Source: Nitrososphaerota archaeon (GTDB lineage Archaea; Thermoproteota; Nitrososphaeria; Nitrososphaerales; Nitrosopumilaceae). Taken from it: 64,000 nt of DNA. The DNA is taken from assembly GCA_021325595.1 (NCBI GenBank), contig JAJPGX010000034.1, positions 1 to 64,000 on the forward strand. The letters are read 5' to 3'. The position numbers and the translations under genes were made by a program. Numbering within the stretch: position 1 is the first letter of the stretch; each line of letters starts with the position of its first letter. Shown in pieces: positions 20,707 to 51,528 of this stretch. Below the pieces are notes generated by a model. That model had not been told where the DNA came from, made no database searches, and worked only from the letters and a program-made list of their open reading frames with translations.

Positions 20707-20775
20707 GATTCCAAATCATGGTACATCATTTAAGGGATTGACAATCTCTTTTATTGTATTCAAATTCATGATTAC

Positions 20776-21069
20776 ATGATAGGCTTATCAAAAGGACAAG
20801 AGATTTTTGACAAGCTCAAAGTTTGGAGCAAGATGGGTTCCGGAGTACTGTATTTACTCAATACCGGCATCTCCTTGGAAATTTCAGGAAAGGGTCTTGC
20901 CCTTGAGCTAAACTATGATGAGATCATACTTGTAAAAGAAATAAAAAAAGAAACGCTTTTGATCTCATGGAAGGAGAACGCGGAAACATACGATATCAGA
21001 TTTAATGTCAAAAATGCAAGTGAGGTTGCTCAGAAGATAAGATATCAAATTGGAAAGTCAGTGGGTTGA
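20776..21069 (+). CDS. PH-like domain protein, 97 aa
   Basis: A single small domain: MIGLSKGQEIFDKLKVWSKM, then GSGVLYLLNTGISLEISGKG and alternating strands ending in a helix. This is the strand/helix order of PH-like (GRAM/bPH) domains. It is clearly related to the first 95 residues of the protein at 38644-39447 (both share GxGxLYLLNxGI and a D/N-H/E-L strand). Such domains bind proteins or membranes. Its 3' end overlaps the convergent gene at 21058 by 12 bases. Confidence 0.65.
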   Translation: MIGLSKGQEIFDKLKVWSKMGSGVLYLLNTGISLEISGKGLALELNYDEIILVKEIKKETLLISWKENAETYDIRFNVKNASEVAQKIRYQIGKSVG

Positions 21070-22098: not shown

Positions 22099-22158
22099 GA
22101 TATCGATTCTTTAAAAAGAGAAAATTTTGCTTTAAATTTTAGACTTTAATCAAATGAC

Positions 22159-23274: not shown

Positions 23275-23376
23275 ACTCGTGTGAATAGATAATTAATTGA
23301 GGTGTGTTTGGTTTCACGTCTAGTGTTCTACTCCTTTGATCGAATCTGTTAAATTCAAACAAGAAAAAGTGTTTTC

Positions 23377-23493
23377 ATGTCATACAAATGCAAGGAATGC
23401 AACCTAGAGTTTTTCTCAACAGAAGGCTTGGAGGTTCATTTTACCAGAGCACACAAGAAAAATGATCCAAATGTCTTGGATTCCTTTGCTTAG
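23377..23493 (+). CDS. C2H2 zinc-finger mini-protein
   Basis: A 38 aa protein, MSYKCKECNLEFFSTEGLEV and onward, ending in DPNVLDSFA. It has the exact C2H2 spacing C-x2-C-x12-H-x4-H (residues 5, 8, 21 and 26). Single-finger proteins of this size are known in archaea and their viruses and plasmids and may bind DNA. ATG start, about 100 bases after the preceding gene, converging with the gene ending at 23508. Confidence 0.75.
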   Translation: MSYKCKECNLEFFSTEGLEVHFTRAHKKNDPNVLDSFA

Positions 23494-23507
23494 ATGTCTT
23501 GACTAGT

Positions 23508-25682
23508 TCAATTATCACCGAAACCTAACGCTGCTGCAAAACCTTTCCAGTATCTTTTGATAAATCCGTATCCAATGACTGCTACTATCAGTATCAAGAC
23601 AGCTGTAATGATGGTATCATAGTGATAAGTTGGCGCAGATATGGAATCATTAGGTTCAAATGTCTTGGATGCCTTGCCGCCCCAGGCGTTGAATGCCTCA
23701 ACTGTAGCATTTGCATTTCTGTCAGACAAAAGCAGAGTACATCCTCTTGTACAGGTCACGTTCTGGACCTTGCCGTCAATGAGAATCTGTGAGTATGGCC
23801 CAAAGTTATTGTCAGGATAGATGTTTACCAACCCCTGATATCTGGTACCGTTGAGGATGTTGTCCTGGTCCATATTTATGACATACCTCCAGTTGGTATC
23901 AAACTGGAAACCGCGCTCAAGAAATGATAATTGTTTTGTTCCTGCGGTAATGGTGACGTTGTAGGGCGACGGCTGCTCATAGACAAGATTTAGAGGCAAA
24001 TCAAGCGGGTTTTGTGCAAATACCTTGTATACATTAGGTATTACCATGGAGGTAAGATTTGCTTGCATGTTTATCACACCAGATGCCGCAGCTACGTCTT
24101 GCTTTCCATACATGTCATCAAGTACAATTCCAGCAAATATCTTGTCCCTGTCATGGACTACTTTTTCTCGTATGAAATCCTGCTCGTATGTAGCATTCTC
24201 TGTAAAGTCTGGAATCATCATCAAGTGTAGTGGAATGTGATTTATGGAGCCATCCGAATGCAATGCTATCACAATGACATCGGTGCTGAATCTAGTGTGA
24301 GGATATCCAAAATAATATTTTGTCAGGTTGTATGTGTTAAATCCAGCAAAGTTTGAAGACTGTAATGTATTGATTATTGTTGAATTGTCATATCTTGTCT
24401 TCAGGATGGTATACAGTATTGGATGATTAAAGATTATTTTACCGTATCCTGCTTGCACAAACATCGCAGAATTTTTCCCAGATTGCAAGGCATTGTCATG
24501 ATAGCTGAAATTTTCATCAACGATATCAGCAGGATAAGATCCAGACCAGGTCATGGACTGGTTTAGCGGTATGGGTGTAAGTATCTTGTAAGCAAAACTT
24601 GTATACACAAAACTGTTTATCTTGCTTCTACGATCTGGATGAATTACAGAAGAACCATCATCTTGACCTCCACCAACTGAACCATAATAGTGAAGTGCAA
24701 CGGCCGGTCTCTTGCCAAACCCCCACCAGCTGCTGTCCTTTAACACAGCGTACGGATAATTCTTGTAAACAGGTTCGTACTGTACCACCAACGCAGTTAT
24801 AGAATTATCGCCTTCACCTATCTTGCGACCTAGATTGTAAACTGTAGTATGATAATAGAAAATGTGTCTATGAATGTCAGCTAGCGTTGTGGAATTGTAT
24901 GCAGTATGGCCTTCTTCATACTCGAAATTATAACTCCATGGTTCTATTGCAGGTTTTGAAAATGTGTATGGACAGTTTCTTTGATGACATTCATAGCTGC
25001 CAATTAATGGTATATCTGATCTTGAATCTGTATGAGTATCAATTGTTCCAAATCTCTCATTTTTCCATTTGTAATGAGGATCAAAGACGATATTGATTCC
25101 ATCCCAGACATAGTATGTGCCATCACCATTTCTCATTTTGTAGTCATCATGGTCTGTAAAATTTTCGAATTTTAGCGCGATAGTTACCTGTGGTTTGATT
25201 ATGGGTGGCGAGTACGAATCTCCGCCCGATGTATACCCCTTGTAGCATTTGTCTATCCCACATACTAGTCCGAATGCCACAACAACTTGTGAGAGACGAG
25301 CACTGCTGGTGGTGGTGCCAATCTCTGCATGGCCATACTCGTAGTAATGACCGTTGCCTTGATCATCGTAAGATACAGGCCCCTGCTGTATGTTACCAAT
25401 TGTCAAGCCAGAAGCCTGTATGGGTTTTGGATAGATGGACCAGCAATTCTGGGTCCACGATACCAGAATACCAAAATCAAAAGCGTCGCCAGGATAATAC
25501 GTACCATCTGGATTTTGTCTTGTAAACGTCTGCCCCTTTATTGTGATCTGTGAAGCGTGTGGAAAGATGTGGACATAGACATGGCATGACGGATCTACAT
25601 ACCCATTTGCATTTGGTATTGATGGTATCAAAGAAGCAATAACTAAAATCATAATTGATATTGCAGTCTTGGTTTTTTGCAC
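23508..25682 (-). CDS. large membrane-anchored surface protein
   Basis: A 724 aa protein with a Sec signal (MQKTKTAISIMILVIASLIPS...NANG) and a C-terminal membrane helix (TIITAVLILIVAVIGYGFI) with a short basic tail. The exterior is rich in Tyr, His, Asn and Gly and has several Cys pairs (CHQRNC, CTRGC, CGIDKC) likely forming disulfides. No enzyme motif was recognised. A pilin-like gene lies just upstream (25716), suggesting both belong to the cell-contact apparatus. Function inferred from context only. Confidence 0.72.
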   Translation of the reverse strand: MQKTKTAISIMILVIASLIPSIPNANGYVDPSCHVYVHIFPHASQITIKGQTFTRQNPDGTYYPGDAFDFGILVSWTQNCWSIYPKPIQASGLTIGNIQQGPVSYDDQGNGHYYEYGHAEIGTTTSSARLSQVVVAFGLVCGIDKCYKGYTSGGDSYSPPIIKPQVTIALKFENFTDHDDYKMRNGDGTYYVWDGINIVFDPHYKWKNERFGTIDTHTDSRSDIPLIGSYECHQRNCPYTFSKPAIEPWSYNFEYEEGHTAYNSTTLADIHRHIFYYHTTVYNLGRKIGEGDNSITALVVQYEPVYKNYPYAVLKDSSWWGFGKRPAVALHYYGSVGGGQDDGSSVIHPDRRSKINSFVYTSFAYKILTPIPLNQSMTWSGSYPADIVDENFSYHDNALQSGKNSAMFVQAGYGKIIFNHPILYTILKTRYDNSTIINTLQSSNFAGFNTYNLTKYYFGYPHTRFSTDVIVIALHSDGSINHIPLHLMMIPDFTENATYEQDFIREKVVHDRDKIFAGIVLDDMYGKQDVAAASGVINMQANLTSMVIPNVYKVFAQNPLDLPLNLVYEQPSPYNVTITAGTKQLSFLERGFQFDTNWRYVINMDQDNILNGTRYQGLVNIYPDNNFGPYSQILIDGKVQNVTCTRGCTLLLSDRNANATVEAFNAWGGKASKTFEPNDSISAPTYHYDTIITAVLILIVAVIGYGFIKRYWKGFAAALGFGDN

Positions 25683-25715
25683 TGCTCAAAAGATTTGAAA
25701 TGTTAAAAAACACGG

Positions 25716-26135
25716 TCAGTAGAGTGAAAATTCAAAAATTGAACCGTTTGATGTGACAAGCTGCATCTTGGAGCCTGATCTGTCCGTATCAATTACTATC
25801 GGTTCCCTTACAGGCAGAGATTGTGTTGTGGTACCATTGATGTATGATATTGTATATGATGTCTTTATCCCATCCACCATTATGCTATCTATCTGCAGAT
25901 TTGTCATTCCATAGTTTACTACTTCTGCCTCTGACCCTGCAGAGGTGTTCCTTCCCGCGATAAATGATACACTCTCTGACATTCTGTTCTGGGAGGAGGT
26001 CAGCATCTGTGAAGCGCTCTGCTGCTGCTTGCCAAACTGGTTTGTAGATGCAGCGATGACTAGTCCTGCAATTGCAAGTGTAATTGCAAACATCAATGCC
26101 GCTGAATATATTTCAGATATGGCTTTTCGTTTCAT
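25716..26135 (-). CDS. archaeal type IV prepilin
   Basis: A 139 aa prepilin. The N-terminus MKRKAISEIYSAALMFAITL is a class III signal peptide: a basic stretch, the K-A cleavage site before ISEIY, then a hydrophobic helix. The remaining 100 residues are beta-rich. It would be processed by the prepilin peptidase at 36032 and assembled by the FlaI/VirB11-like ATPase and TadC-like platform. It is transcribed toward the 724 aa surface protein gene, 33 bases away. Confidence 0.8.
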   Translation of the reverse strand: MKRKAISEIYSAALMFAITLAIAGLVIAASTNQFGKQQQSASQMLTSSQNRMSESVSFIAGRNTSAGSEAEVVNYGMTNLQIDSIMVDGIKTSYTISYINGTTTQSLPVREPIVIDTDRSGSKMQLVTSNGSIFEFSLY

Positions 26136-26266
26136 TGTAAAATCAAGTACTGGGAGAATTAAAGCACTTGATTAAACCTACAATTTATGAAAATCCTACA
26201 CTTGTGCAAGAATACCACTAAATACATATAAGAATTCAGTGGTCTTTTTGGACAAAACTCTCTTCC

Positions 26267-26995
26267 TTAACGCGCAAGCTCGGTTATGACGCGTGATACT
26301 TCATCTGACCCTATGCCTATTGCATTGGAGACTGCATCGTATTCATCTTGTGTAAACTTTGATACGACGGCAGATATTGAAGGAACATCCAGTATTTTCT
26401 GAACCTTTTCTTTTAGTTCCGGAAGCTCGATATCCGAATACCACAAAAGGGCGTATATGTCTGAGATGTCCTTTATGCGCTTGTCATCCTTGTTTCTGGA
26501 AGGTACAGATTTTAGCTTTGTAGCAATCAGGATTTCAGGCGTGGGTAGCCTGAATTTGCCTCCAAATTCACTCAGAGAAATGAATTTTTGCCCTACAAAA
26601 ACATGAGAAAGAAGGGGCTCATCAAGAAGCGGAAATCCTACAATCTTTTGTGCAGCTTTGTGTATATTGTCTACCATTGGATCCACATACAGCTGGAACA
26701 TTTCATATGAAGGCTTTTTTCTCGATTCTGCTTCGCTGAGTTCCTTCTTTGTATTTATGTCGTAATGTTTTACAAATCTTGAACCCAATCCATTAAATCC
26801 TCGAGATTTTAGAATTTTCACCGACTGAGCAAATGCAGATTTTTCTAGATCCGTTGAAGACCAATTTGGATCTATGTGAAATCCAAGATCTATATCTCGT
26901 GAACCAAGATAATTTCTTCCGTTGGTTTTGTTAAATTTTGTATTTACTGTAAGGTAGACTGCCCATCCGCCAAGAAGGCATACTGGTTCTTTCAT
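26267..26995 (-). CDS. AbiEii-like nucleotidyltransferase toxin
   Basis: A 242 aa nucleotidyltransferase-fold protein. CLLGGWAVYL and GSRDIDLGF are the GG...DxD motifs of the AbiEii/DUF1814 group, whose members act as toxins of type IV toxin-antitoxin pairs. It follows a winged-helix gene, as toxin follows antitoxin. The reading frame runs on upstream of this ATG through HLTAVFSQ, which looks like part of the domain. A CTG at 27055, 9 bases after a strong GGAGG, may be the true start and would overlap the antitoxin gene by 17 bases. Confidence 0.75.
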   Translation of the reverse strand: MKEPVCLLGGWAVYLTVNTKFNKTNGRNYLGSRDIDLGFHIDPNWSSTDLEKSAFAQSVKILKSRGFNGLGSRFVKHYDINTKKELSEAESRKKPSYEMFQLYVDPMVDNIHKAAQKIVGFPLLDEPLLSHVFVGQKFISLSEFGGKFRLPTPEILIATKLKSVPSRNKDDKRIKDISDIYALLWYSDIELPELKEKVQKILDVPSISAVVSKFTQDEYDAVSNAIGIGSDEVSRVITELAR

Positions 26996-27038
26996 TTGTG
27001 AAAATACTGCTGTCAGATGCCCCTGCGATATTTCAGTT

Positions 27039-27647
27039 TCATAATCTTCGTACAGAGTTCTTCTCCTCCTTTTCCAACAACATTTCTGCGGCTTCCACAG
27101 CTACCAGTCCCTCCACCAAGAGATCAACTATCAGTTGTGGCACAGATACTAAAGTCAATCCCTTTTTAACAAAAGAATTGTAGAAGACATGATTGTCTGT
27201 CATAAGAATTCTCACATTTCCTTTTCCAACCAGTCCTTTTTCTGAAAGGATGTTATGCCATTCCTTCAGATCCTTTGAATCTATGTAAAAGTCCACCCTT
27301 GATGGAAACAAATAACTTTGAACCAAATTTTCTGCAGAGTATGTAGTAAGTGCGTACTTCATGTTGGTTTTACGAAGGATATCAAGTGGTTCTCTTATCA
27401 TGTACTCTCTGGTCTTTGGTGTTATCTTCCAATCACGCCAAAGCAAAAAGAGCTCTTTGTATTTTCTTACTTTAGTGCCTTCAATCAATCCCTTTTTTTC
27501 AAGGCCTTTCAGGGTATCATGAACCCAAGAAAATGCGCTGTCTGTCAGTTTTGCCAGTTTGTACTGTGTGAGATCCCCATTTGGGTGATTTAGTAGTACC
27601 CTTAGCACTCTTTCCCTGATGTAACCCCTTTTTTCCTTGATTTCCAT
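27039..27647 (-). CDS. AbiEi-like winged-helix antitoxin
   Basis: A 202 aa protein with an N-terminal winged helix (RVLRVLLNHPNGDLTQYKLAK to about residue 65) and a C-terminal domain of the kind seen in AbiEi-type antitoxins, which repress their own promoter. The start at 27647 is preceded by TTATATAAAG about 24 bases upstream, suggesting a leaderless transcript, and by three related palindromic sites. Its 3' end meets the nucleotidyltransferase gene. The pair sits inside the pilus/conjugation gene block, probably stabilising it. Confidence 0.72.
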   Translation of the reverse strand: MEIKEKRGYIRERVLRVLLNHPNGDLTQYKLAKLTDSAFSWVHDTLKGLEKKGLIEGTKVRKYKELFLLWRDWKITPKTREYMIREPLDILRKTNMKYALTTYSAENLVQSYLFPSRVDFYIDSKDLKEWHNILSEKGLVGKGNVRILMTDNHVFYNSFVKKGLTLVSVPQLIVDLLVEGLVAVEAAEMLLEKEEKNSVRRL

Positions 27648-27648
27648 G

Positions 27649-27732
27649 CCTATCGGTTTCCTTTATATAATTTGGTATTTACCGATATATCGGTAACTAT
27701 CTAAGTATTTAAGGCTAACCGATAGGTTAGCC
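27649..27732. promoter_or_regulatory. triple operator at the AbiE-like promoter
   Basis: Three copies of an ACCGATA-type motif lie upstream of the antitoxin gene: CCTATCGGTT (27649-27658), the perfect palindrome TTACCGATATATCGGTAA (27679-27696) and the perfect inverted repeat GGCTAACCGATAGGTTAGCC (27713-27732). The TATA-like box (27662-27672) lies between the first two, so a bound repressor would block the promoter. Autoregulation by the winged-helix antitoxin is the natural reading. Confidence 0.65.
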
Positions 27733-27767
27733 ACGTCACACAGTGATTGACAATCTCTTGCCATTTC

Positions 27768-28193
27768 TCAATTGCCTGTAACCTGAAGGCTTGTAACAAA
27801 AGTAGAACCATCATTTGCTACAGCATTTACCCTGACTGTGTAGATGCCACCATATGTGGAAGCTGCATTTAGTATTCCTTTTTGTTCCATGATGGTTCCA
27901 GGATTTACTGTGGTTTCATTTTGAGGCAGATTGTATGTCATGCCATTTATGATAACTGCAACGTTTGTTTTTACAAATTGTTTACTTCCGGTATTCTGTA
28001 ATGTAACATCATACCACGTCAGTGTACCTGATTGTATACTTGTAAGTGATGCACTGTTGATAGAATACTGTACATTTGATGAAAGAATGTTGTTAGAGTT
28101 TACCATGAAATTGTATACAAGTACGCCAAGTCCTCCAGCTACAAGTACTAACAAAGAAACTGCATATGCAGAATGAATTGCGCGTCTGTTCAT
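27768..28193 (-). CDS. type IV prepilin-like protein
   Basis: A 141 aa protein. MNRRAIHSAYAVSLLVLVAG is a class III-type signal with an R-A junction before a hydrophobic helix; the remainder is beta-rich with a pattern like archaeal pilin or FlaF/G accessory domains (LTWYDVTLQNTGSKQFVKTN). It is a probable minor pilin of the conjugative pilus. It lies downstream of the VirB4-like gene in the same direction. Confidence 0.75.
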   Translation of the reverse strand: MNRRAIHSAYAVSLLVLVAGGLGVLVYNFMVNSNNILSSNVQYSINSASLTSIQSGTLTWYDVTLQNTGSKQFVKTNVAVIINGMTYNLPQNETTVNPGTIMEQKGILNAASTYGGIYTVRVNAVANDGSTFVTSLQVTGN

Positions 28194-28215
28194 GATGATA
28201 AAACTAGTTGGTGTT

Positions 28216-28485
28216 TTAAAGACTAGGATGTTTTTCCCTTTTTGGTTGTTTTAAAAATACTGGATCATTGCGAACTAGTTTGTTTGTCTTGTCGTAAATA
28301 CAAATGTAATAAAGTATTTGTCCATGGGATTCTGATCTCTGTTTGAGTCGTACAACATGGTTTTGTGTTTCGAACTTTTGTCCTATATCAAGAGCAATGA
28401 TCTTTTTTGCAAGTTCATACTCTGAAATTCCTAGAAGATAAGATATCTCGCAGAAATACTTGTAATACTTGTTCTTAAGCTGCAT
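28216..28485 (-). CDS. small conserved-looking protein after VirB4-like gene
   Basis: An 89 aa protein starting MQLKNKYYKYFCEISYLLG. The start at 28485 overlaps the VirB4-like stop by 11 bases, so translation is probably coupled; a frame opening at 28518 overlaps further and is less likely. Helix-rich N-terminus (SEYELAKKIIALDIG) and a beta C-terminus. No family recognised; by position a small accessory factor of the VirB4-like ATPase. Confidence 0.6.
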   Translation of the reverse strand: MQLKNKYYKYFCEISYLLGISEYELAKKIIALDIGQKFETQNHVVRLKQRSESHGQILYYICIYDKTNKLVRNDPVFLKQPKREKHPSL

Positions 28486-30283
28486 TGTAATTCTGTGGAG
28501 ATGTACCAAACATCTCAAGCTCTTCCTTTGATGGAGTGATGTATGCCCGTAGTCTATAGTCCCGAGTCAGAATCAGAGCTTCACCTGGATTAAATGATAG
28601 TACCATGTCTTTTTCTTGGGGCGAGAGCTGCAATGACCTGACAAGCTCGTCTGATGCAATCTCATTGTTTCTTAAAATAATCTTGGTCTCGGAATTGTCA
28701 AAGAACGCGCGTCCTGCCTCTGTCTTTGTTACGTCTTCGACCCTCTGGGAGATGAACATGAAGATAACATTCTTTTTTCTCCCCATACGTGCAAGCAGGT
28801 CAACAAACTTGGCAGCGCTTGCAAACCTGAATATGAGGTGGCCCTCGTCGATTAGCAGTATCTTTGGAGTATCTACAGGCGCAGAACCTATCTTCTTCCA
28901 GAGTTTGGCAAGTGCCAAAAAGCTGACCTTTGCCACATAGTCCTCGGCATATGTCCCCTTGAGAGATATGATTGTCTGGTCAGATACCCTAGGCTCGCCT
29001 CGAAACAGCGTTGCCATGGGTCCTGTTACTAGGTTCACAAGGTATTTCTTTTCCTCGTCGGAGAGTTTGTCATAAAACTCGTCAAGGTTCCTGACACCAT
29101 CACATTTTGCAAGAAAAGAGTTTACAACAAGTGGCGGAGCTTGGGCAATCTCGCAGAGTACGTTTACAGCATCGCTTGGCTTGTCAAACATCTTGAAGGG
29201 ATCAAATCCAAGCTCCTCCCCTCCTGTGATCCTTATGGGTTCAATTTTTAGATATTTTGCAATCTTTTCGTACTCTCCCTCCGGGTCTACGATAAAAGTA
29301 AGTGCTGTTGGATATTTTTCCATTAGTCTCTTTAAAATCAGCTTTGCAGTAACTGACTTGCCAGCACCAGAGCTTGCAAGAATCAAGATGTTATAATTTG
29401 CACGCATTGAATAATTGTATATGATTGGAGCTCCAGTGTTGTAGTTGATACCGATTGTAATTCCATTTGGTACCTCCAGCATGTCTGAGCTTACAAATGG
29501 ATAAAAAACATCGCATGAGCCAAGCTCGACGTACAGCTTTTTGCCCCAACCTTCTAACATCTTGGCTTGATTTGCTGGCGTATTGTCAAAATGTGAAAGC
29601 GATATGCGGGTGATCTTTACAAATTTTTTTGCTGCATTCTTTAACGATTTGATGTTATTTGCATAAATTATCGCGTTGGCAGTGACCATGAATAGTTTAG
29701 TGTTGTTCTTTTCTAATTCTGATACTGTCTGAAGGCCAATCTGGATTTGATTGACTATTTTTGAATTGGTGCTCTGCGTAGACCTCATCAGGTGAATCTT
29801 TTTTCGCAGTTTGGATACTGCTCTATCCTGTTCTATTGGAGTAAATTCCAAAATAATTTGATCACATGCAGAAAGAAGAGAATAGACCCAAGCAGGAGAG
29901 AGTGAAGACGATGGAGAGTAAAGTGTATAGCATTTGGCCAGTCTATCATCTTGTAAAAGTACGTGTTTCCAGTATTCTTTTTTTACCTCAAACTTGGGTG
30001 GGCTTGGTACAAAAAAATAATCAAATCCCTGGCTCTCAAGGATGCCATCAAGTGGTTCTGTGCTTGACATGAACGTTCGTAGAATCTGAAGATGCCTTAC
30101 TTCGTTTCCCATATCTACACTCAGTGGCTCCTTTGTTATCGTAATCCGCAAAGGTTCCTGAATTGATGATAACAAGTAATAGAAATGGGATAAAACAATT
30201 GCCTGCTTTTGCGCAGGCAGAGTGAAAAAGTTGGTGGGCTTGACCTCATAGGTGTAGATTGTCTTTGCCTTTATTTTTTTCAC
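28475..30283 (-). CDS. VirB4-like conjugation ATPase
   Basis: A 602 aa ATPase of the VirB4/HerA family that powers substrate transfer and pilus biogenesis in type IV secretion. The N-terminal 270 residues form the typical VirB4 N-domain. Walker A ASSGAGKS is at about 303-310 and Walker B LLIDEGH follows, with FISQ as sensor. It is adjacent to the FlaI/VirB11-like gene cluster. Upstream lies a 307 base gene-free region with a long hairpin. Confidence 0.87.
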   Translation of the reverse strand: MKKIKAKTIYTYEVKPTNFFTLPAQKQAIVLSHFYYLLSSIQEPLRITITKEPLSVDMGNEVRHLQILRTFMSSTEPLDGILESQGFDYFFVPSPPKFEVKKEYWKHVLLQDDRLAKCYTLYSPSSSLSPAWVYSLLSACDQIILEFTPIEQDRAVSKLRKKIHLMRSTQSTNSKIVNQIQIGLQTVSELEKNNTKLFMVTANAIIYANNIKSLKNAAKKFVKITRISLSHFDNTPANQAKMLEGWGKKLYVELGSCDVFYPFVSSDMLEVPNGITIGINYNTGAPIIYNYSMRANYNILILASSGAGKSVTAKLILKRLMEKYPTALTFIVDPEGEYEKIAKYLKIEPIRITGGEELGFDPFKMFDKPSDAVNVLCEIAQAPPLVVNSFLAKCDGVRNLDEFYDKLSDEEKKYLVNLVTGPMATLFRGEPRVSDQTIISLKGTYAEDYVAKVSFLALAKLWKKIGSAPVDTPKILLIDEGHLIFRFASAAKFVDLLARMGRKKNVIFMFISQRVEDVTKTEAGRAFFDNSETKIILRNNEIASDELVRSLQLSPQEKDMVLSFNPGEALILTRDYRLRAYITPSKEELEMFGTSPQNYNAA

Positions 30284-30590
30284 ATGTTTTAGAGAATCTT
30301 TACTTTTAAGGAACAGAACATCAATGATGAATAATGAAGGCTGTGTTAAACAAAAATTGTAGTCATGCCTGAAATTCTGCTAAAATGTTAAATACGATAA
30401 ATCGATCTACCGATCAAAGTCAGGGGGTCGCAAGGCGTCAACTCCCCAAGACAAGACGCGATGCCATCAGTTCCATGACCCCTTGACTGATTATTGAATC
30501 ATAAAATCAACTTGCATTTAACAATTTAGATTCTTGTTTACATAATCGTGGATCAAATCTTTTTGGTCGATGTAATTAATCTCAAGAATT
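30284..30590. other. gene-free region between VirB4-like and VirB11-like genes
   Basis: There is no credible gene in these 307 bases. They hold the promoter of the VirB4-like gene, AT-rich flanks and, in the middle, a GC-rich stem-loop (30418-30488) described separately. Confidence 0.6.
30418..30488. repeat. long GC-rich stem-loop
   Basis: AGTCAGGGGGTC (30418-30429) pairs with GACCCCTTGACT (30477-30488) over 12 positions with one G-T wobble or mismatch. Inside, GGCGTC (30434-30439) pairs with GACGC (30455-30459). It lies in an otherwise AT-rich gap. It could be a terminator of the VirB11-like operon, a structured RNA, or a DNA-processing site. It shares the motif CTTGGGG-GTTGA (minus strand) with the hairpin at 36720. 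Confidence 0.6.
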
Positions 30591-32063
30591 TTAGTCAACA
30601 AACGAATAATATTTTTTTAATATTTCAAAAACTTGCGGTATGTCATAGGCTTTTTTCTCAAGACACTGATCTAAAAGTTGGATTCTCTTTTGCATGTCAC
30701 TGACAAGTTCTACTCCAAGCAGTTCTGCAACGTGATTCAGCCTCTTGCTTTTCTTGATCAGTTCTTCTACATCATCTAATCCAAAGCTGTCTGTTCTTCT
30801 GTCATAACTGAAAAGATCCGTACCTGCGATGCCATCTTCGGTCGGATTTATCTCAGTCAGAGATCTTATCCTACGTATTGCCTTGCCGTCAGAACCCTTG
30901 AGTCTTGTGGAATGAGCTGCAAACCAAAGCAGCATCTGTTGCGACGGTTTTATGTTAATTGGTTCTGCAGCAAGTCTTGTCAGTGCAGATTTTATGTCAG
31001 AGCCATGTATTGAGCTTAAACCTCCATGGCCGGTAGCAGCACTCTGAAACATCTCGTTTGCTTCTTCGCCCCTTACCTCACCTACTATTACAAAGTCCGG
31101 CCTCATCCTAAGTGATGCCTTGATTAGTTCCATGATGCCAATATCGTTATCAGATCTGATGAGCGGGCTCGTCCTGGTCTTCAGTGAGACAACGCGTTTG
31201 TGAGGTATTTGTAGTTCTGGTGTCTCTTCTATGGTAAGTATTCGCCATCGCGGGTTTGCCATGGTCATAAGCGAGTTAATCAGGGTTGTCTTGCCAGAGC
31301 CTGTCTCGCCTACGATGAGGCCAAAAGCCTTGGCGTCAATTAACACCCAGATGTAGGCAGCCATGATCTTGCTAATAGTTCCAAACTGCAAGAGATGCGT
31401 AATCGTATAGGGTTTTGATGGAAACTTGCGTATTGTTACCGTAGGGCCGTTAAGCGAGACCTCGTTGCTAAAAGTGACAGTTATTCTATGCTTTGCCTTT
31501 GTGGTACCGTCCATAATCGGCTTTGATATGTTGACAGATTTTCCAGTCTTTTGCATAAGCCTTGACACGTACGAGTTCATCTCGTCAGATTTTCCTATGA
31601 CGATATTGGTATCAAGTATGTGTGCTTCTGAGTGCCTGCGATGAATTACTCCAACATTTCTATCAAATCTTTCAGCAAGAACTTCTTCGACATCATCATC
31701 ATGTATCAGAACATCAAAGATGCCGTAGCCAATGACTTCCCGTATGATATAATACCTTAGTCGGTCAAAAAATTTGGAGACCTTTTCTACCTGTCCTGTA
31801 TCTTGCGCCTCTTTCCAAATGTGAGTTTCAAGATGATGGATCTTCTCTTCGTCTGTTTCCAGTTTGTCAATAAACGGAAGTGAGTTCATCAAGTGTTCAG
31901 TAATGGTACCATAGAACTCATACTCTTCCTGTGAAAGTGGTGGTTCTTTTATCAGATACTGACCTGTGGAGGTGATGTAGACCTTGGCCTCTCCTATATC
32001 ATAATGGTCAATGACTTGGACCTGGCCAATATCTGCATCAAGAGCGGTGAACTTGAAGACCAC
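30591..32063 (-). CDS. FlaI/VirB11-like secretion ATPase
   Basis: A 490 aa ATPase of the GspE/PilT/FlaI/VirB11 superfamily that drives pilus assembly. Walker A GETGSGKTT is at 252-260; the Asp box region (TIEETPELQI), Walker B-type segment (PDFVIVGEVRGEEA) and His box (GHGGLSSIHG) are all present. The N-terminal 200 residues match the FlaI-type N-domain. It works with the TadC-like protein at 34115. It leads the minus-strand run downstream of the VirB3/VirB2-like genes. Confidence 0.9.
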   Translation of the reverse strand: MVFKFTALDADIGQVQVIDHYDIGEAKVYITSTGQYLIKEPPLSQEEYEFYGTITEHLMNSLPFIDKLETDEEKIHHLETHIWKEAQDTGQVEKVSKFFDRLRYYIIREVIGYGIFDVLIHDDDVEEVLAERFDRNVGVIHRRHSEAHILDTNIVIGKSDEMNSYVSRLMQKTGKSVNISKPIMDGTTKAKHRITVTFSNEVSLNGPTVTIRKFPSKPYTITHLLQFGTISKIMAAYIWVLIDAKAFGLIVGETGSGKTTLINSLMTMANPRWRILTIEETPELQIPHKRVVSLKTRTSPLIRSDNDIGIMELIKASLRMRPDFVIVGEVRGEEANEMFQSAATGHGGLSSIHGSDIKSALTRLAAEPINIKPSQQMLLWFAAHSTRLKGSDGKAIRRIRSLTEINPTEDGIAGTDLFSYDRRTDSFGLDDVEELIKKSKRLNHVAELLGVELVSDMQKRIQLLDQCLEKKAYDIPQVFEILKKYYSFVD

Positions 32064-32114
32064 TAGTTTAGAGAATGAATTCTATTAAAAGAGATGCCAA
32101 GCTGGGTTCTGGGA

Positions 32115-32170
32115 ATGGGGGGATGCCAAGATAACTGTAAAATTTTACAGTTATCTTGACGCCCCCCCAT
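32115..32170. repeat. 56 base near-perfect hairpin
   Basis: A perfect 30 base palindrome occupies 32128-32157 (arms AAGATAACTGTAAAA and its complement). It is flanked by ATGGGGGG (32115-32122) and CCCCCCAT (32163-32170), which also pair, with a short internal loop between. It lies in the 113 base gap between the VirB11-like start and the next upstream gene. Candidate transcription terminator, attenuator, or DNA-processing (origin-of-transfer-like) site. Confidence 0.7.
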
Positions 32171-32176
32171 AGTTAG

Positions 32177-32563
32177 TCATCTCATTCTTGATGACGTGTC
32201 AGTGTCATGCGATGACTCTATCATCTTACTAGTAAGAAATCGCTTGTTAGATTGCCATGCCATAATATGTGCAAGGCCAAAAACTGATGAAATGATACTC
32301 ATGAATACCATATCGAATTGAAACTTGAGAATGTAGCTTGATGAAATAATCAATCCAATCTCAGCCAATGCCTGCAAGGCGATTGATCTTCTTGTACCAA
32401 ATCTTCTGACAAGGAACCTAAACAGAAAGTTTGTCTCGTATTTTATAAAATCATTACATGATATGGTAATTTTCACATCTAGGATAAAGGAGAATGCCCA
32501 AAATGAGAAAAATGAGAGTTGGATCCACCATGGCAGTTGCAGGCCAGTTAGCACAAGCACCAT
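32177..32563 (-). CDS. small multi-span membrane protein
   Basis: A 128 aa protein with three to four hydrophobic segments (near 10-28, 65-85 and 88-105). Located directly downstream of the VirB2-like gene within the secretion cluster. No family recognised; by position a membrane component of the transfer channel. Confidence 0.6.
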   Translation of the reverse strand: MVLVLTGLQLPWWIQLSFFSFWAFSFILDVKITISCNDFIKYETNFLFRFLVRRFGTRRSIALQALAEIGLIISSSYILKFQFDMVFMSIISSVFGLAHIMAWQSNKRFLTSKMIESSHDTDTSSRMR

Positions 32564-32586
32564 TGGAGAAAGAGATAGTGGTGTCC

Positions 32587-32883
32587 CTAGCTTTTTTTTA
32601 GTTCCAGCTTGATTGCGCCTGATACAATTACTCCAAGTGCAACTACTGTTCCTATGAATTGACCTGCTCCAACTACCCTGTGCAATAGATCTGATGGAAT
32701 AAGTTGTGCTGTGCTGGTAGAGTTACCAGTGTTTATCTGACCGGATAGTATATCGCAGTTGCAGATGAAATTGGCTGCAGTTGGTGCAACCAGTACCAAG
32801 AGCAAGCCTGCAACACCGGCTACAATCATTTTGGTGTATTTGCTTCCAAGGCTTACTTCTTCTCCAGACAAGTGGTCGAACAT
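32587..32883 (-). CDS. VirB2-like two-helix membrane protein (candidate pilin)
   Basis: A 98 aa protein with two membrane helices (MIVAGVAGLLLVLVAPTAAN and FIGTVVALGVIVSGAI) joined by a polar loop of about 30 residues with CNC. The topology and size match VirB2/TrbC/CedA1-type conjugative pilins, which lack a class III signal. It lies 22 bases after the PrgI-like gene and 23 before the next membrane-protein gene. The assignment rests on topology and context, not on a motif. Confidence 0.55.
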   Translation of the reverse strand: MFDHLSGEEVSLGSKYTKMIVAGVAGLLLVLVAPTAANFICNCDILSGQINTGNSTSTAQLIPSDLLHRVVGAGQFIGTVVALGVIVSGAIKLELKKS

Positions 32884-32905
32884 GTCACATAAAATAATAA
32901 ATTAT

Positions 32906-33571
32906 TTAAGCGAAATTTTCCTGCGGAGTTCTTACGTCGATTACCTCAGAGAATACAGGCTCTTTCTGTTCGTCAACATATACTGTGATCTTCTTTTGTC
33001 CTGATACCTTTGGTACGATTATTGTTTCAAGTTCGCCGTTGATGTCAGTTGTCAGAGAGTCCGTGTAGAGATCGTCCAGATAAACTTTGGACTTTTTGTT
33101 TGCAAGTGCTTGACCTGTTGTCCCGACTAGTTTGATCTTGAACCTAAACGGTTTTGAAAGGTCTGATGATATGATGGTCCTTATCTTATTTTCCAGAGTC
33201 TCTGTAATGAATGGGTCTGAGAGGCCAAGTTTTTTGCTTGATGTTACAAGCCGCTTGCTCTTTGGTTTTTTTATTTTAGGTTCTGTTTTTTGTATGCTGC
33301 GTCTGCCAACAAGAAATAGAATGACTGATGCAATCATCTCTTCTGAAGAGCCCACCTTTGGTTTTACAAATGTAAGAAATGCCCCAAAACAGATTGGAAT
33401 TGCAGAGACCAGACCATGTGTGCCTGAAAATAGAGCATAGGATATCATTCCTGATATACCAAGAATGAAAAATTGTTTCATCGATATCCTGCCAAATACC
33501 GGAAAAGAAAGAACAGGCTCGTTTAACGCACTGACGTCTTCAAACCACAGCATCTCGGTCTTTCTTAACAT
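32906..33571 (-). CDS. PrgI/VirB3-like membrane protein with Ig-like tail
   Basis: A 221 aa protein. Residues 20-95 have the PrgI-family pattern: a short beta segment ending VFGRISMKQFFILGISGMIS, then two membrane helices. PrgI is the VirB3 equivalent in many type IV secretion systems. The last 90 residues form a beta domain (VGTTGQALANKKSKVYLDD, with DING) like an Ig/carboxypeptidase-regulatory fold, not part of standard PrgI. Next to VirB2-like and VirB11-like genes. Confidence 0.65.
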   Translation of the reverse strand: MLRKTEMLWFEDVSALNEPVLSFPVFGRISMKQFFILGISGMISYALFSGTHGLVSAIPICFGAFLTFVKPKVGSSEEMIASVILFLVGRRSIQKTEPKIKKPKSKRLVTSSKKLGLSDPFITETLENKIRTIISSDLSKPFRFKIKLVGTTGQALANKKSKVYLDDLYTDSLTTDINGELETIIVPKVSGQKKITVYVDEQKEPVFSEVIDVRTPQENFA

Positions 33572-33608
33572 TGTACCTCAACAAAAAATAAGATAAAAGG
33601 AACTTTTT

Positions 33609-34043
33609 CTATGGAGCGAACAGAGTTCCTATCTTTGATGTAATGGAGCCATCATCTGCAGTAGCTTTGACTATAACAGGTATCTGCGTACCTGAGGCCG
33701 GATTTGCCGGATTTGGCACCACTATACCTGAGTAACTTGCTGTCTGTCCGGGCTTGATAGATGGTGGACTGAGGTTGTAAGGCACAGAAGCTGCGATTTG
33801 AACAGTCACATTGTTTAGTACCTTGCTGCCATCGTTTTTGACGTCTACTGAGGCATAGTACGTCCCGTCAAATGTCTTTGTAAATTCGCTGTGCGCAATT
33901 TCAAGTGATGCGCTTTGGGTCAGAGAGTGTACTCCGCCGTTGACAGCAAATGCCACGACTGCAACAATTGCTATTACGACTCCTATAATCAACGCTATCT
34001 CCATTGACTGCGACATGGCCTTCCTTGATCGAGGTTGGTACAT
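33609..34043 (-). CDS. archaeal type IV prepilin
   Basis: A 144 aa prepilin starting MYQPRSRKAMSQSMEIALIIG. The SRKA-M junction followed by a long hydrophobic helix is a canonical archaeal class III signal. The body is one beta domain with an NxG-rich pattern like FlaF/FlaG-type accessory pilins. A frame opening at 34106 would add 21 unlikely residues before the signal. It is divergent from the TadC-like gene at 34115. Confidence 0.8.
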   Translation of the reverse strand: MYQPRSRKAMSQSMEIALIIGVVIAIVAVVAFAVNGGVHSLTQSASLEIAHSEFTKTFDGTYYASVDVKNDGSKVLNNVTVQIAASVPYNLSPPSIKPGQTASYSGIVVPNPANPASGTQIPVIVKATADDGSITSKIGTLFAP

Positions 34044-34114
34044 CACACCAAAACGCTGATTTGTTTTTAAGGTCACAGTCAAGTTGCCTTTTTTAGTATC
34101 GTACATTTTACCAC

Positions 34115-35992
34115 GTGAACTTCAATGGCATCATTTTTGGTTTGATAGTATCATTTTGGATCTCGCTTGCTCTAAATAATTTTGCAGTCTTTACAATTTC
34201 TTCCGTCTCTTTGGTACTAGTACTGGCACTTCAAAAGCCTGCAAAATTTGATTTTAGAAAAATGCTTGACAGGGTCAGAAAGATACGCCTGCAAAAGCTG
34301 GCAGCACTTGATGTAAAAAGACCAACTCTGAAGATATTTCCCATATCAGACGGGCTGCCAGTGGTGTTATCAAAACCAATACTTGATACTAGAATATTTC
34401 AGAGACTGCAAACAATTCTTGAAGGTACCATTGAAGGAAAAATAAGGATGGCAGGAAGGCCAGCCAATCCTCTTAACATGGTAAAAAAGAGCATCTCCCT
34501 TTCCTTGCTATTTGTATTTATTACATTACCAATTGCAATCATACTTGGAATATTTGTAAATCCTATCTTTTTTGCCCTGGCAACAGGTCCGATTGGAATT
34601 TCTTTCTATCCTGGTATCGCACTGAAGCTTGCCAAATCAAAAAGAGAGACAGAGATCAATCACGAGCTTGCATACTTTGTTAGATACGCTGGAATAATGC
34701 AGAGTGTAGAAAAGTCACTCTACGATTCACTAATTGGTGTAATAGGATACAGCCTCTTTGATGTCATCGAGACTGACGGCAAGATGGTGTATCGAAATGT
34801 CACCATGTTTGCAATGGACATATTTGAGGCGCTAAACGAGATTGCCTTGAATCACCCAAACCGTGCATTTCGGTCGTTTCTCCTCAGTTACGTCGCAACG
34901 GCACAGACAGGAGGAGATCTTACAAATTTGGTTGAGGGTGAGGCTGACTCTTTTTTTGAGTCTCTAAAATCAAGCATCAAAAGATACGTAGAGACTTCAT
35001 CAACTTTTGGCGAGATTTTACTTATCATACTGCTCATCATGCCGACATTTCTGATAGCTACATCATTTCTGCTTCCTGGCAGCTCCGTGATCTTGCTGGT
35101 ACTGATAGGAGTGGTAGGAATTCCAATGATAAGCCTTGGTCTTGTAATAATGATAGACACATCGCAGCCGCGCAATCAAAACAAGGTTACAGTGAGCAGG
35201 CTGGCTTTTCTTGTTGGAATAATTATCGGAATCATTGGTATCATATCACAGCAGCACCCATGGTTTATCATAACATCAGGTGTGTTAGGCTTTGCACTGA
35301 CTAATTCATTTTATACCATACCACAGTTCACGCAAATAAAAAATTTGGAAAATGCCATGCCAGAGTTTCTCAGGGATGTCACAGAGTACAGAAAGATTGG
35401 ATATGATATGACAATATCGTTGTTTCAACTTTTTGGAAAGCGAAGATACAATGATACCTTTGACAAGTTATTTGGTACAATATTTTCCAAGTTAAAGTCA
35501 GGGCAGACTCTGTCTTCTATAACACTTGGAGAAAACCGTTCCTGGATGACAAGATTGATAATTTTCATTTTAGGAAAACTTGCAGATACTGGAGGCGGGA
35601 CTACATTGACACTAGAACATCTAACAAGATTTGTATCAGATGTCATCATCACAAAAAGAGAGACGGTATCTGCTCTTAGAATGCAGATGTTTCTTGTATA
35701 CATTGGTCCTGTTCTGATGGTCTGGGTTGCCAAGGTTTCAACATCGCTTCTAACCAAGATGGGCTCGAACCTAGCATTTTTTACAACTTCGGGAATAGGA
35801 AACACATTTTCCATAACGCCTGACTTTACAGACGCTATAAACATTGTAATGGCCATCTCATCTATTGCGATGGGATTTGTCTTCACCAAAATCAGCATGT
35901 TCACGCTAAAGGATACAAGAAATGTCGCAATTACATCAGCAATAGTACTTGCTGCAATTTTCCTCTATCCGTATCTTCCTTCAATTTTTTAG
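34115..35992 (+). CDS. TadC/FlaJ-like pilus assembly membrane platform
   Basis: A 625 aa polytopic membrane protein with two T2SF/TadC-type domains: the first around 190-300 (NHELAYFVRYAGIMQSVEKS, SFLLSYVATAQTGGDL) and the second around 415-520 (FLRDVTEYRKIGYDM, ILGKLADTGGG). They are separated and flanked by clusters of membrane helices. It is the inner-membrane platform of archaeal type IV pili and partner of the FlaI-like ATPase at 30591. A prepilin peptidase gene follows 39 bases downstream. Confidence 0.88.
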   Translation: MNFNGIIFGLIVSFWISLALNNFAVFTISSVSLVLVLALQKPAKFDFRKMLDRVRKIRLQKLAALDVKRPTLKIFPISDGLPVVLSKPILDTRIFQRLQTILEGTIEGKIRMAGRPANPLNMVKKSISLSLLFVFITLPIAIILGIFVNPIFFALATGPIGISFYPGIALKLAKSKRETEINHELAYFVRYAGIMQSVEKSLYDSLIGVIGYSLFDVIETDGKMVYRNVTMFAMDIFEALNEIALNHPNRAFRSFLLSYVATAQTGGDLTNLVEGEADSFFESLKSSIKRYVETSSTFGEILLIILLIMPTFLIATSFLLPGSSVILLVLIGVVGIPMISLGLVIMIDTSQPRNQNKVTVSRLAFLVGIIIGIIGIISQQHPWFIITSGVLGFALTNSFYTIPQFTQIKNLENAMPEFLRDVTEYRKIGYDMTISLFQLFGKRRYNDTFDKLFGTIFSKLKSGQTLSSITLGENRSWMTRLIIFILGKLADTGGGTTLTLEHLTRFVSDVIITKRETVSALRMQMFLVYIGPVLMVWVAKVSTSLLTKMGSNLAFFTTSGIGNTFSITPDFTDAINIVMAISSIAMGFVFTKISMFTLKDTRNVAITSAIVLAAIFLYPYLPSIF

Positions 35993-36031
35993 AGCGATTT
36001 CAGGTTTTAAAACGGTACAATATTTGCATAC

Positions 36032-36655
36032 GTGTATGATATAGAATCGCTAAGGCAGATAGTTGCTCTTTCCATGCTATCAGTCGCATCATATTTTGAC
36101 ATAAAGAAACGCGAGGTCAATGATATCGTTTGGATAATCTTTGGCGGAACAGGCTCCATGTTGTATCTTTTTGAGCCAATTGGTTTCATTACCGTTTTGT
36201 ATCTTGGAATTGGTATTGTAATTGGTATTGTGTGGATTCTTACCAGGGCGTTTGGTCAGGCCGATGGGCTTGCTCTGATTGCACTTGCCATAACATTACC
36301 TGCCCATGAAAAATTACCTGTTGGCTTAATTGTGTCAATAGCTACGCCATTTCTTGCAGCACTTTACAGTCTGTGCTCGAACATGTCATACAACACATCT
36401 GACCTGTTACACGGAAGACTGTTTTTGGGAGTTTGCGAAAAATTACACAGAAAGGCATTTGCATTTCTTGTACTACACAGAAAAAGAATACATGAAAGGT
36501 TTGTGTTTCCAGCACAGAACGCAGACAAATTCGTATTTCATTTCAGACCAAAAATAGATCTAGAGTTTTCAAATGATTTTCATGGATATGTAACATCAGC
36601 ACTACCACTGATTCCATTCATGCTAGTTTCAGTGATCCTGATACTTTTACTCTGA
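36032..36655 (+). CDS. prepilin peptidase, A24 family (PibD/TadV-like)
   Basis: A 207 aa membrane aspartic protease that removes class III signals from prepilins. The two catalytic Asp are visible: D23 in SYFDIKKREVND and D78 in the FGQAD version of the GxGD motif. Membrane helices fill the N-terminal 120 residues; a soluble stretch and one C-terminal helix follow. GTG start 39 bases after the TadC-like gene. It would process the prepilins at 25716, 27768 and 33609. Confidence 0.88.
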   Translation: MYDIESLRQIVALSMLSVASYFDIKKREVNDIVWIIFGGTGSMLYLFEPIGFITVLYLGIGIVIGIVWILTRAFGQADGLALIALAITLPAHEKLPVGLIVSIATPFLAALYSLCSNMSYNTSDLLHGRLFLGVCEKLHRKAFAFLVLHRKRIHERFVFPAQNADKFVFHFRPKIDLEFSNDFHGYVTSALPLIPFMLVSVILILLL

Positions 36656-36719
36656 TTCTTAAGACTCCTTAAAAACAAAATGATTCTAAGAATTGGCGCC
36701 AGATCATCAACCCCCCAAG

Positions 36720-36759
36720 AGAGTGCAGTCCAGCGAGAAATTCTCCTGGATTGCACTCT
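36720..36759. repeat. long stem-loop upstream of the VirB6-like gene
   Basis: AGAGTGCAGTCCAG (36720-36733) pairs with CTGGATTGCACTCT (36746-36759) over 14 positions with one G-T pair. The loop itself can pair as GAGA/TCTC. It lies in the 177 base gap after the prepilin peptidase gene. The bases just before it (TCAACCCCCCAAGA) resemble a piece of the 30418-30488 hairpin. Likely a structured leader or terminator. Confidence 0.6.
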
Positions 36760-36832
36760 ACCTAAAGGATCTTTGGACGCATAGAATCTATGTTTTTTAT
36801 TTTCTTTTAAAAGCACATCAGCATTTGATGTT

Positions 36833-38629
36833 GTGTTAAAAGATTCTGAAACATCAAGTCCGTGCAAAGAAGGATCAAAGAGAAAATGTAGCATAATTAA
36901 ATCAAGAAAGGGGTTTGGTCTTGACTCTCTCATCATGATAATTTCTGCAATTGTCATCATTGCCATCTTGATAGGCATCAGCAAGGTCTTCATGACTACG
37001 CTAGAAAATTCCTATGTCTCACTTACCACTACCATGCCAAAGTTCGATCCTACAGGCAACTATGATACCGCTCAGAATTCTACATCAATACAGAACGCGT
37101 CAACATCGCTTCTCTCGGTATACGACATGCTGCGGTCTGGTACCATTTGGGCAATAGGCGCGATACTTGTGATTGCTGGAATCTTGTTCATGTTGGAACA
37201 AATAGAAATTGTCCCGGCATCAACTGCGTTTGGAATCATCTCAAAAGGCAGTCTTTATTTTCTAATCCTGTTTGGGTTCCCACCACTCTGGGACCTTTAT
37301 GCCACTGGAATCGAGTATGGTTCTAGAACCATAATGGACCCTGCAGGTACAGGCCAGACACCACAATCTGTAATCAAGGTGTTTGATACCATAAACGGAA
37401 TGGGAATCTCGCAGGGGCAAGTACCGCAGGTTGACAATTCTGTTTTGAATAATCTAATCCAGCTCTTCAACGGTGCAAACATAGTATCAACTTTTTCAGA
37501 CCAGGGCAAGGCCTTCATTCTTGGGTTGATTGGTGGTCTGATAGCACTTGTCGCATCATTTCTGACATACATGTTTTCAGCAATAAGGCAGGTCCTGACA
37601 GCTGTACTAGTCGCAGGCCTCCCAGTAATTTTGATCTTATCTCTTGTCCCATGGTTTCAGGGAATTACAAGAAGGCTCTTTGATACCTTGTTTGGTCTTT
37701 CAATTGTTCCAATATTTTCTAGTCTTGTGATGGTAACAGGTGCTGCATATCTTGGTTCCATTACAACCCATCCGGTAGAAGAACAGTGGTTTGCCTCGGT
37801 TGCAGTCCTGACACTTGCAACATTTGTTCCAACTATCCTGGTTCCACTTCTTGGCTCACTTTTTAGCTCCATGACAGGTATAGTATCATCTGGCGTAGGC
37901 TTTGGCGGAATGATGACGGTGATGGCAGCAAGAACAGGTCAAGGAGTAGGAAGCGGCGCCTATGGTGCAATAGCAGCAGTACAACAACAAGGAATGGAGC
38001 ATGGCATACCATACTCAGGCCTTGATATGGTAAAGGCAGGGATAGGCGGCGGCCTTGCCGGAGGCTTTGGTGGGCTGGTGCAGGGCGCCTCCCATGCAGG
38101 CTCGCAGGCCCTCAGGCAAGTGGGTGCAAAAGAGGTTGCATATGACGTGCGGGACATGGGCACTCAGGTTGCAAAAAGGTTCCAAGATGCAGCACAGCAA
38201 CATGGTATCTCAGTAATACAGCCAGCAGTAGATCACACCTTGACAGAAAACTCGGCAGTGGTTATGACCAAGCTTGCAACAATTCCAGTTCCACAGGAGC
38301 AAAGAGAGATACACATGCAAAACGGTACCACTTTGCTTAATCTAGCACATGGTTCAATCGAGACTGGCAACTATTCCCAGATACTAGACCACTCTTACTT
38401 CAAATCCGTTCCTGTTAAAGACAAGGAGAGCTTTGCAAAAGCAGTCTCTGCAACAATTGTAAATCACGGGCTTGAGCCTCAAAAGCTTGCAAACATTTCT
38501 TACAATTTGGAGAAGATGGGCGGCCTAACAGCTGACAACATGAAAGACTTTATTCGAAACTATAAAACGCACGACACATCACATAATGCAGACAAATCTC
38601 AAACATTAGACAAGTACACGGGCATTTAA
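36833..38629 (+). CDS. VirB6-like polytopic membrane protein
   Basis: A 598 aa protein with about six membrane helices between residues 30 and 370. The last 220 residues are Gly/Ala/Gln-rich, then soluble and helical. This layout matches VirB6/TrbL-type channel subunits of type IV secretion. The extreme N-terminus has SRKGFGLDSLIMIISAIVII, which looks like a class III prepilin signal and would be unusual for VirB6. The start is a GTG at 36833. It follows the prepilin peptidase gene and hairpin. Confidence 0.65.
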   Translation: MLKDSETSSPCKEGSKRKCSIIKSRKGFGLDSLIMIISAIVIIAILIGISKVFMTTLENSYVSLTTTMPKFDPTGNYDTAQNSTSIQNASTSLLSVYDMLRSGTIWAIGAILVIAGILFMLEQIEIVPASTAFGIISKGSLYFLILFGFPPLWDLYATGIEYGSRTIMDPAGTGQTPQSVIKVFDTINGMGISQGQVPQVDNSVLNNLIQLFNGANIVSTFSDQGKAFILGLIGGLIALVASFLTYMFSAIRQVLTAVLVAGLPVILILSLVPWFQGITRRLFDTLFGLSIVPIFSSLVMVTGAAYLGSITTHPVEEQWFASVAVLTLATFVPTILVPLLGSLFSSMTGIVSSGVGFGGMMTVMAARTGQGVGSGAYGAIAAVQQQGMEHGIPYSGLDMVKAGIGGGLAGGFGGLVQGASHAGSQALRQVGAKEVAYDVRDMGTQVAKRFQDAAQQHGISVIQPAVDHTLTENSAVVMTKLATIPVPQEQREIHMQNGTTLLNLAHGSIETGNYSQILDHSYFKSVPVKDKESFAKAVSATIVNHGLEPQKLANISYNLEKMGGLTADNMKDFIRNYKTHDTSHNADKSQTLDKYTGI

Positions 38630-51526: not shown

Positions 51527-51528
51527 TT

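Follow-up and report, generated by a model that had tools for sequence, protein, structure and literature searches.

Interleaved type IV pilus and type IV secretion genes as the predicted mating region of an integrative element in a Candidatus Nitrosotalea-type archaeon

The window, i.e., the whole 64,000-nt stretch of DNA analysed here, covers the initial 64 kb of C18, a contig of 111,849 nt from a Nitrososphaerota genome of 1.64 Mb in 50 contigs, whose closest named relatives include Candidatus Nitrosotalea metagenome-assembled genomes. Between positions 25716 and 38629, genes for a type IV pilus (T4P) are interleaved with genes for a type IV secretion system (T4SS), and this cluster is predicted to be the mating region of an integrative and conjugative element (ICE) inserted at a tRNA-Ser gene of a Candidatus Nitrosotalea-type ammonia-oxidising archaeon. 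The mating system reaches beyond 25716-38629, with a VirD4-like gene at 1566-4154, a surface protein gene at 23508-25682, and adhesin-like genes at 15177-22098.

The predicted T4SS is a reduced one, made up of VirD4, VirB4, VirB3/PrgI, a VirB2-like pilin, a VirB6-like channel, TM128, and a large surface protein. The VirD4/TraD-like coupling ATPase (1566-4154, minus strand) matches TrwB_AAD_bind (1e-5), HerA (2.9e-8), and SXT TraD (7.7e-9). The VirB4 ATPase (28475-30283, minus strand) matches the TraG P-loop (1e-10) and aligns with VirB4 of the conjugative Sulfolobus plasmid pNOB8 and its relatives at 27-28% over 98-99% of the protein, and no relative of it was found in the viral contigs searched. 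The VirB3/PrgI-like protein with a C-terminal extension (32906-33571, minus strand) matches PrgI at 0.003 alone and is assigned through its family, in which 14 of 19 members match PrgI (best 3e-6); in 8 of these 19 proteins the extension (residues ~130-221) weakly resembles macroglobulin MG4. A 98-residue protein with two helices (32587-32883, minus strand) was assigned as a VirB2-like T4SS pilin by its family and its conserved slot. Alone it has no family match, and PF18895 (T4SS_pilin) matches 10 of 21 family members (best 3.5e-9); Foldseek was uninformative on its low-confidence AlphaFold2 model, with a predicted local distance difference test (pLDDT) score of 61. TM128 (32177-32563, minus strand), an unnamed conserved membrane protein adjoining VirB2 and VirB3, has the invariant residues D29, T33, E43, H99, and N106. 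Its AlphaFold2 model is good (pLDDT 90) and gave no convincing structural match, since the best VIA-align Z of 7.0 may, for helical proteins, reflect just a common arrangement. The VirB6/TrbL-like channel protein (36833-38629, plus strand; TrbL 0.0023 and family) is the weakest of the assignments and is supported by a Thermococcus plasmid protein, matched at 26 bits. Searches of PDB sequences with the VirB2, VirB6, VirB3, and TM128 profiles returned nothing useful, and a common origin of VirB2 and VirB6, which was reported for Ced, was not convincing here (profile comparison probability 17%). Finally, the surface protein of 724 residues (23508-25682, minus strand), with a signal peptide and a C-terminal membrane helix, goes with the T4SS in 25 loci, including loci that lack the T4P.

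The pilus genes point to a T4P of the Ups/Bas type rather than an archaellum. Three prepilins on the minus strand, one UpsB-like (25716-26135, 6e-8) and two UpsA-like (27768-28193, 2.4e-5; 33609-34106, 6.5e-7), have an N-terminal K/R-A cleavage-like site followed by a hydrophobic helix, and their UpsA/UpsB matches are significant, yet under the model cut-offs. The UpsF-like (TadC) platform (34115-35992, plus strand) matches T2SSF (2.6e-8) and NCBIfam UpsF (1.8e-77), scoring 261 bits with the UpsF model, 163 with BasF, and 34 with ArlJ. A prepilin peptidase (36032-36655, plus strand) matches Peptidase_A24 slightly under the Pfam cut-off (1.2e-5) and has both presumed catalytic Asp residues. The assembly ATPase of FlaI/BasE type (30591-32063, minus strand; T2SSE 2e-33) matches solved structures of archaeal T2SS/FlaI enzymes at 1e-67 to 1e-53, as against 1e-15 for VirB11, which argues for a pilus-type enzyme and not a VirB11. 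In addition, two large secreted adhesin-like proteins (15177-17972 and 18022-20334) and a small single-helix pilin-like protein (20368-20706), all on the minus strand, go with the pilus, and the family of the first is also found beside free Ups-like loci.

The original prediction had called prepilins with class III signals, a prepilin peptidase, a TadC-like platform, and a FlaI-like ATPase, together with VirB4- and PrgI/VirB3-like genes, and all of these calls are supported by the matches above. Its VirB2-like gene is supported through the family, while its VirB6-like gene has the TrbL and Thermococcus plasmid matches in its favour and stays a weak assignment. It had also given all of 25716-38629 to the pilus and the T4SS, which holds for the named genes and fails at 26267-27647, where an AbiEii/AbiEi-like pair is located.

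Pilus and T4SS genes are closely joined in the window. The UpsA-like prepilin at 33609-34106 heads a run that continues into VirB3, VirB2, TM128, and the pilus ATPase, with 37, 22, 23, and 113 nt between successive genes, and the run is probably co-transcribed. A near-perfect 28-nt hairpin (32115-32170) between TM128 and the pilus ATPase is possibly a processing or attenuation signal. A bacterial-type promoter scan, ill-suited to archaea, gave about the shuffled level. VirB4 was searched for in 300 genomes of the class Nitrososphaeria, of which 56 were positive, and gene maps were drawn for 50 VirB4 loci. According to these maps, pilus and T4SS genes occur together around VirB4 in several families of the class in reshuffled order, and the window cluster is therefore not a chance arrangement. 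In loci of four genera, VirB3 is preceded on its own strand by a prepilin gene at a distance of 24-38 nt, and an intact pilus ATPase lies within ~17 kb of VirB4 in 25 of the 50 loci. In 30 VirB4-positive genomes, 19 of 26 strong UpsF matches (at least 165 bits) fall within 25 kb of VirB4, as against one of 28 weaker ones. In a tree built from 53 ATPases, the VirB4-linked ones also group together (five label changes versus a shuffled mean of 18, with none of 500 shuffles as low). Moreover, gene distances of VirB4 correlate with those of the pilus ATPase (r 0.77, n=25) and the platform (0.78, n=17) at levels comparable to the T4SS-internal pairs VirB4-VirB3 (0.72) and VirB4-VirB6 (0.86), host relatedness being still included in all four values. 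Linkage, ATPase clustering, distance correlation, and prepilin-VirB3 proximity all argue against two independent loci, which the original prediction had named as the finding that would speak against it, and for one interleaved and co-inherited module.

We consider it probable that the ICE encodes a mating apparatus of two separable machines, a T4SS that serves as DNA conduit and an Ups/Bas-type contact pilus. The pilus would gather donor and recipient cells, and the VirD4-like coupling ATPase and VirB4 would drive DNA through the VirB6-like channel, with VirB3, the VirB2-like pilus, TM128, and the membrane-anchored surface protein (23508) as presumed partners of the conduit. It is by analogy that we infer DNA transfer by the element and a role of the pilus in mate contact. 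Deletion of the Ups operon in Saccharolobus abolishes both DNA import and export (PMC11868833), and IncI plasmids depend on their T4SS in every case, with the T4P assisting transfer in liquid (PMC12857230). The cluster may thus be best read as the archaeal equivalent of IncI, in which a DNA conduit is combined with a contact pilus.

Alternatively, the two sets of genes could form one fused machine, in which the pilus ATPase acts as the VirB11 of the T4SS and the T4P is obligatory in the DNA conduit, as modelled for PAPI-1 (PMC12857230). That precedent is in its favour, as are the single run of prepilin, VirB3, VirB2, and pilus ATPase and the search near VirB4, which found no separate VirB11. 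However, the ATPase is far nearer to archaeal pilus ATPases than to VirB11, and relatives of the element have lost the pilus. Genome G218 of the same genus carries two elements, both without the platform and all prepilins, whose pilus ATPases keep Walker A but have lost the His box and the Walker-B glutamate (GEVR changed to DDVQ or DCLT), although their VirB4 proteins are 78% and 66% identical to that of the window, VirB6 is more than 70% identical, and VirB3 and VirB2 are conserved. In the G151 element the ATPase is gone too, besides platform and prepilins, and all three elements have an intact VirB core. In elements of other families, which have no T4P genes in the vicinity, VirB4, VirB2, TM128, VirB3, VirB6, and the 724-residue surface protein are retained, and an Ups-type platform was absent when the whole genomes of G098, G080, and G119 were searched. 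Decay or loss of the ATPase alongside a retained T4SS core suggests that this enzyme serves the pilus and has no VirB11 role, and loss of the pilus with the core kept suggests that the pilus is accessory. We therefore regard a fused machine as unlikely.

The pilus might also be cargo, an adhesion pilus useful to the host or the element without any part in mating. It is dispensable, large adhesin-like genes accompany it, and free Ups-like loci exist without VirB4, so that this pilus type is not exclusive to elements. On the other side, it is specifically the Ups type, and not other pili, that is recurrently linked to VirB4 across families, a prepilin heads the VirB3 run, and Ups pili elsewhere serve DNA exchange (PMC11868833), which leaves cargo improbable beside a contact pilus.

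A further question is whether the VirB2 slot is still occupied. The VirB2 profile has members in 23 loci, and in the seven VirB3/TM128 loci examined that it missed, an open reading frame (ORF) of 97-143 residues with hydrophobic segments lies in the same slot; nearly all loci that have VirB3 and TM128 thus have a two-helix pilin at this place. A replacement of the mating pilus by the archaeal one, as originally proposed, is highly improbable, because, although pilus and T4SS genes are interleaved and the window's VirB2-like protein has no family match of its own, its family matches T4SS_pilin, the slot is filled in loci with VirB3 and TM128, and pilus-less elements keep the T4SS core.

Several observations on the module stand apart from these readings. 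The N-terminus of the VirB6-like protein (36833-38629, plus strand), ...KSRKG-FGLDSLIMIISAIVIIAIL, is prepilin-signal-like; in close relatives the residues before the signal-like stretch vary, and G or A followed by F is kept. VirB6 might be a substrate of the peptidase, since the latter keeps both presumed catalytic Asp residues in the two G218 elements and in G151, which have no prepilins or platform. Against this, the pilus-less elements of another family start MV-FGL with the peptidase not nearby, and the signal was set aside as ambiguous with regard to a physical fusion of the machines. In G102 (a single contig of 1.455 Mb), parts of the module are scattered at ~20 kb, 198 kb, and 992 kb in the groups platform plus VirB3, VirB4 plus split VirB6, and ATPase plus TM128, and may be dispersed or domesticated. 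At the G132:C1 locus (from 2217000), ORFs of 1,807 and 1,639 residues on opposite strands (19497-29880) match platform and ATPase, which could reflect either genuine fusions or long open frames in a GC-rich genome.

The genes at the left end of the contig are those of an integrated element. A tRNA-Ser(CGA) gene with a 15-nt intron (10-107, plus strand; ARAGORN with introns, Rfam), overlooked by the default scan and recovered when introns were allowed, is the presumed integration target (attL side), and a tyrosine integrase (175-1422, plus strand; Phage_integrase 1.9e-8) starts 68 nt from its end. Together with VirD4 and VirB4, they support the original claim of a thaumarchaeal conjugative-type element. 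Contig C18 starts 9 nt before the tRNA gene, and the end of contig C29 shares exactly 107 nt with this start, stopping at the last tRNA base. Such a break would be expected if the insertion were absent in some cells, and other assembly causes are possible. The tRNA-Ser gene is generally single-copy in relatives, where the sequence at C29:6854 abuts that at C18:73870, so the chromosome is back by ~73.87 kb and the element part on C18 is at most ~74 kb. The element begins at about window position 107 and ends no later than contig position 73,870, and the gene order in the source genome implies an inversion around the insertion.

Some points weigh against this picture. A pattern search of the genome for attR found as its sole copy the tRNA at the contig ends, where the assembly is broken, and the right border is therefore merely bounded. 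A relaxase was not recognised on the element, as is likewise the case for other archaeal conjugative elements (PMC6563490). The platform, at 261 bits, falls under the NCBIfam UpsF equivalog cut-off of 400 bits, and the free Ups-like loci and the host phylogeny left in the distance correlations also count on this side.

The gene mix itself was already listed for thaumarchaeal ICEs (Krupovic et al. 2019, PMC6563490), elements of the kind with which the original prediction had proposed a comparison. Its statement that such parts usually sit in separate systems does not hold, as these ICEs and also IncI plasmids and PAPI-1 (PMC12857230) are published mixes. Like the published ICEs (PMC6563490; Abby et al. 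2018, PMC5797428), the window element has VirB4, VirD4, VirB6- and VirB3-like proteins, TadC, FlaI/PilT-type ATPases, a prepilin peptidase, and pilins, with no relaxase and no synteny between lineages, and is integrated and of similar size (published median 64 kb, PMC6563490). Unlike all of those in PMC6563490, it has no TFIIB homologue on its contig, the 10 matches in the genome lying elsewhere than on C18; TFIIB is a common feature of such ICEs, not a strictly defining one. What is added here is the conservation of the VirB2-like slot and TM128 across more species, and the identification of the pilus as Ups/Bas-type. Among bacteria, IncI (R64) and PAPI-1 are likewise single conjugative elements that combine a T4P with a T4SS (PMC12857230), but of unrelated subtypes; in PAPI-1 the T4P is needed under all conditions and the clear T4SS parts are VirB4 and VirD4 only. 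As for archaeal self-transmissible plasmids, VirB4 is homologous along its length in pNOB8 and pT33-3, and the T. nautili 33-3 plasmid, taken to be pT33-3 from its strain and size, also encodes, close to VirB4, proteins resembling VirB3 and VirB6 as well as a small membrane protein. However, neither plasmid has a pilus ATPase or UpsF-like platform near VirB4, and the platform had no match on any plasmid of the collection searched.

The Ups and Ced systems of Sulfolobales (PMC11868833, PMC9905601) also combine an Ups-type platform and pilins for contact with VirB4-, VirB6-, and VirB2-like parts for DNA movement, but they are chromosomal, separate, and ultraviolet-induced, and move chromosomal DNA. 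In the window, a single mobile element carries both machines together with VirD4 and VirB3, and the platform is under the UpsF cut-off. The comparison with Ced/Ted suggested originally shows a likeness in the Ups-type and VirB-like parts and not in the setting, the window locus being on an integrase-bearing element rather than chromosomal and domesticated. The Ups/Bas-related pilus of ammonia-oxidising archaea, of unknown function (Abby et al. 2020, PMC7554672), is probably the same pilus type. Conjugation terms are absent from that text as whole words, whereas many copies here adjoin VirB4. In the Nitrososphaeria genomes searched, five platforms of distant relatives exceed the UpsF cut-off (G108, 552 bits; G131, 541; G008, 537 and 512; G202, 423), and all of them are near VirB4. 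In a phylum-wide sample of 300 genomes, matches over the cut-off (446-610 bits) were found in one family only, whose remaining platforms reach at most 280 bits and which we take as Sulfolobaceae because the control Sulfolobus acidocaldarius also exceeds the cut-off. This pattern is consistent with Ups and the ICE pilus sharing an origin. A doubtful and quite tentative extension is that Ups and Ced of Sulfolobales might be the split, domesticated descendant of conjugative elements with an Ups-type pilus already wired to a T4SS.

In addition to the mating genes, the window contains passengers and neighbours. An AbiEii-like nucleotidyltransferase (26267-26995, minus strand; AbiEii 7.7e-5), a putative passenger toxin-antitoxin gene, and its AbiEi-like winged-helix partner (27039-27647, minus strand; MarR_2 3.8e-4 and position) sit between two prepilin genes, likewise in G133, and a 44-nt imperfect palindrome (27649-27726) is directly upstream of the pair. 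Also on the minus strand are an ArdC-like antirestriction protein (40941-41759; ArdcN 4.3e-7), an actin-like segregation protein (43754-44593; MreB_Mbl 2.1e-8), and a possible ParB-like protein (45265-46362), which was recognised by eye with no Pfam or NCBIfam match and is conserved with the element in the genus. Two full copies of the proteasome beta gene, ~89% identical, are present at 49213-49806 (minus strand) and G000:C40:9442-10032, whereas each of the other genomes in the genus that has a match at this threshold has a single one. The location of the C40 copy agrees with that of the chromosomal gene in relatives, which makes it probable that the window copy is borne by the element or an island. 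The region 4176-14979 encodes an AAA ATPase (IetA-like), two Hsp70/DnaK-like proteins, GrpE-like and J-like proteins (by eye), and, on the opposite strand, a LemA-domain protein; none of its genes that were tested occur in the related loci examined. Next to or inside the element, a defence cluster (50714-62201, plus strand) holds a HaeIII-type restriction enzyme beside a Dam-like methylase, a SNF2-type helicase resembling ZorD, and a UvrD-like protein (by eye).

As far as the cited papers show, it is new that the pilus is of the Ups type and specifically linked to VirB4, that the VirB2 slot is conserved together with TM128, that the surface protein goes with the T4SS, and that the ATPase decays once the pilus is lost. 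The ammonia-oxidiser pilus of unknown function (PMC7554672) is now linked to conjugative elements. Comparing elements with and without the pilus allows the DNA conduit to be told apart from the contact pilus. In archaeal conjugation, roles have so far been assigned by mutation to VirB4 and VirD4 (PMC12857230). The result is a testable parts list for archaeal conjugation, extended by TM128 and the 724-residue surface protein, both of them conserved and unnamed partners.

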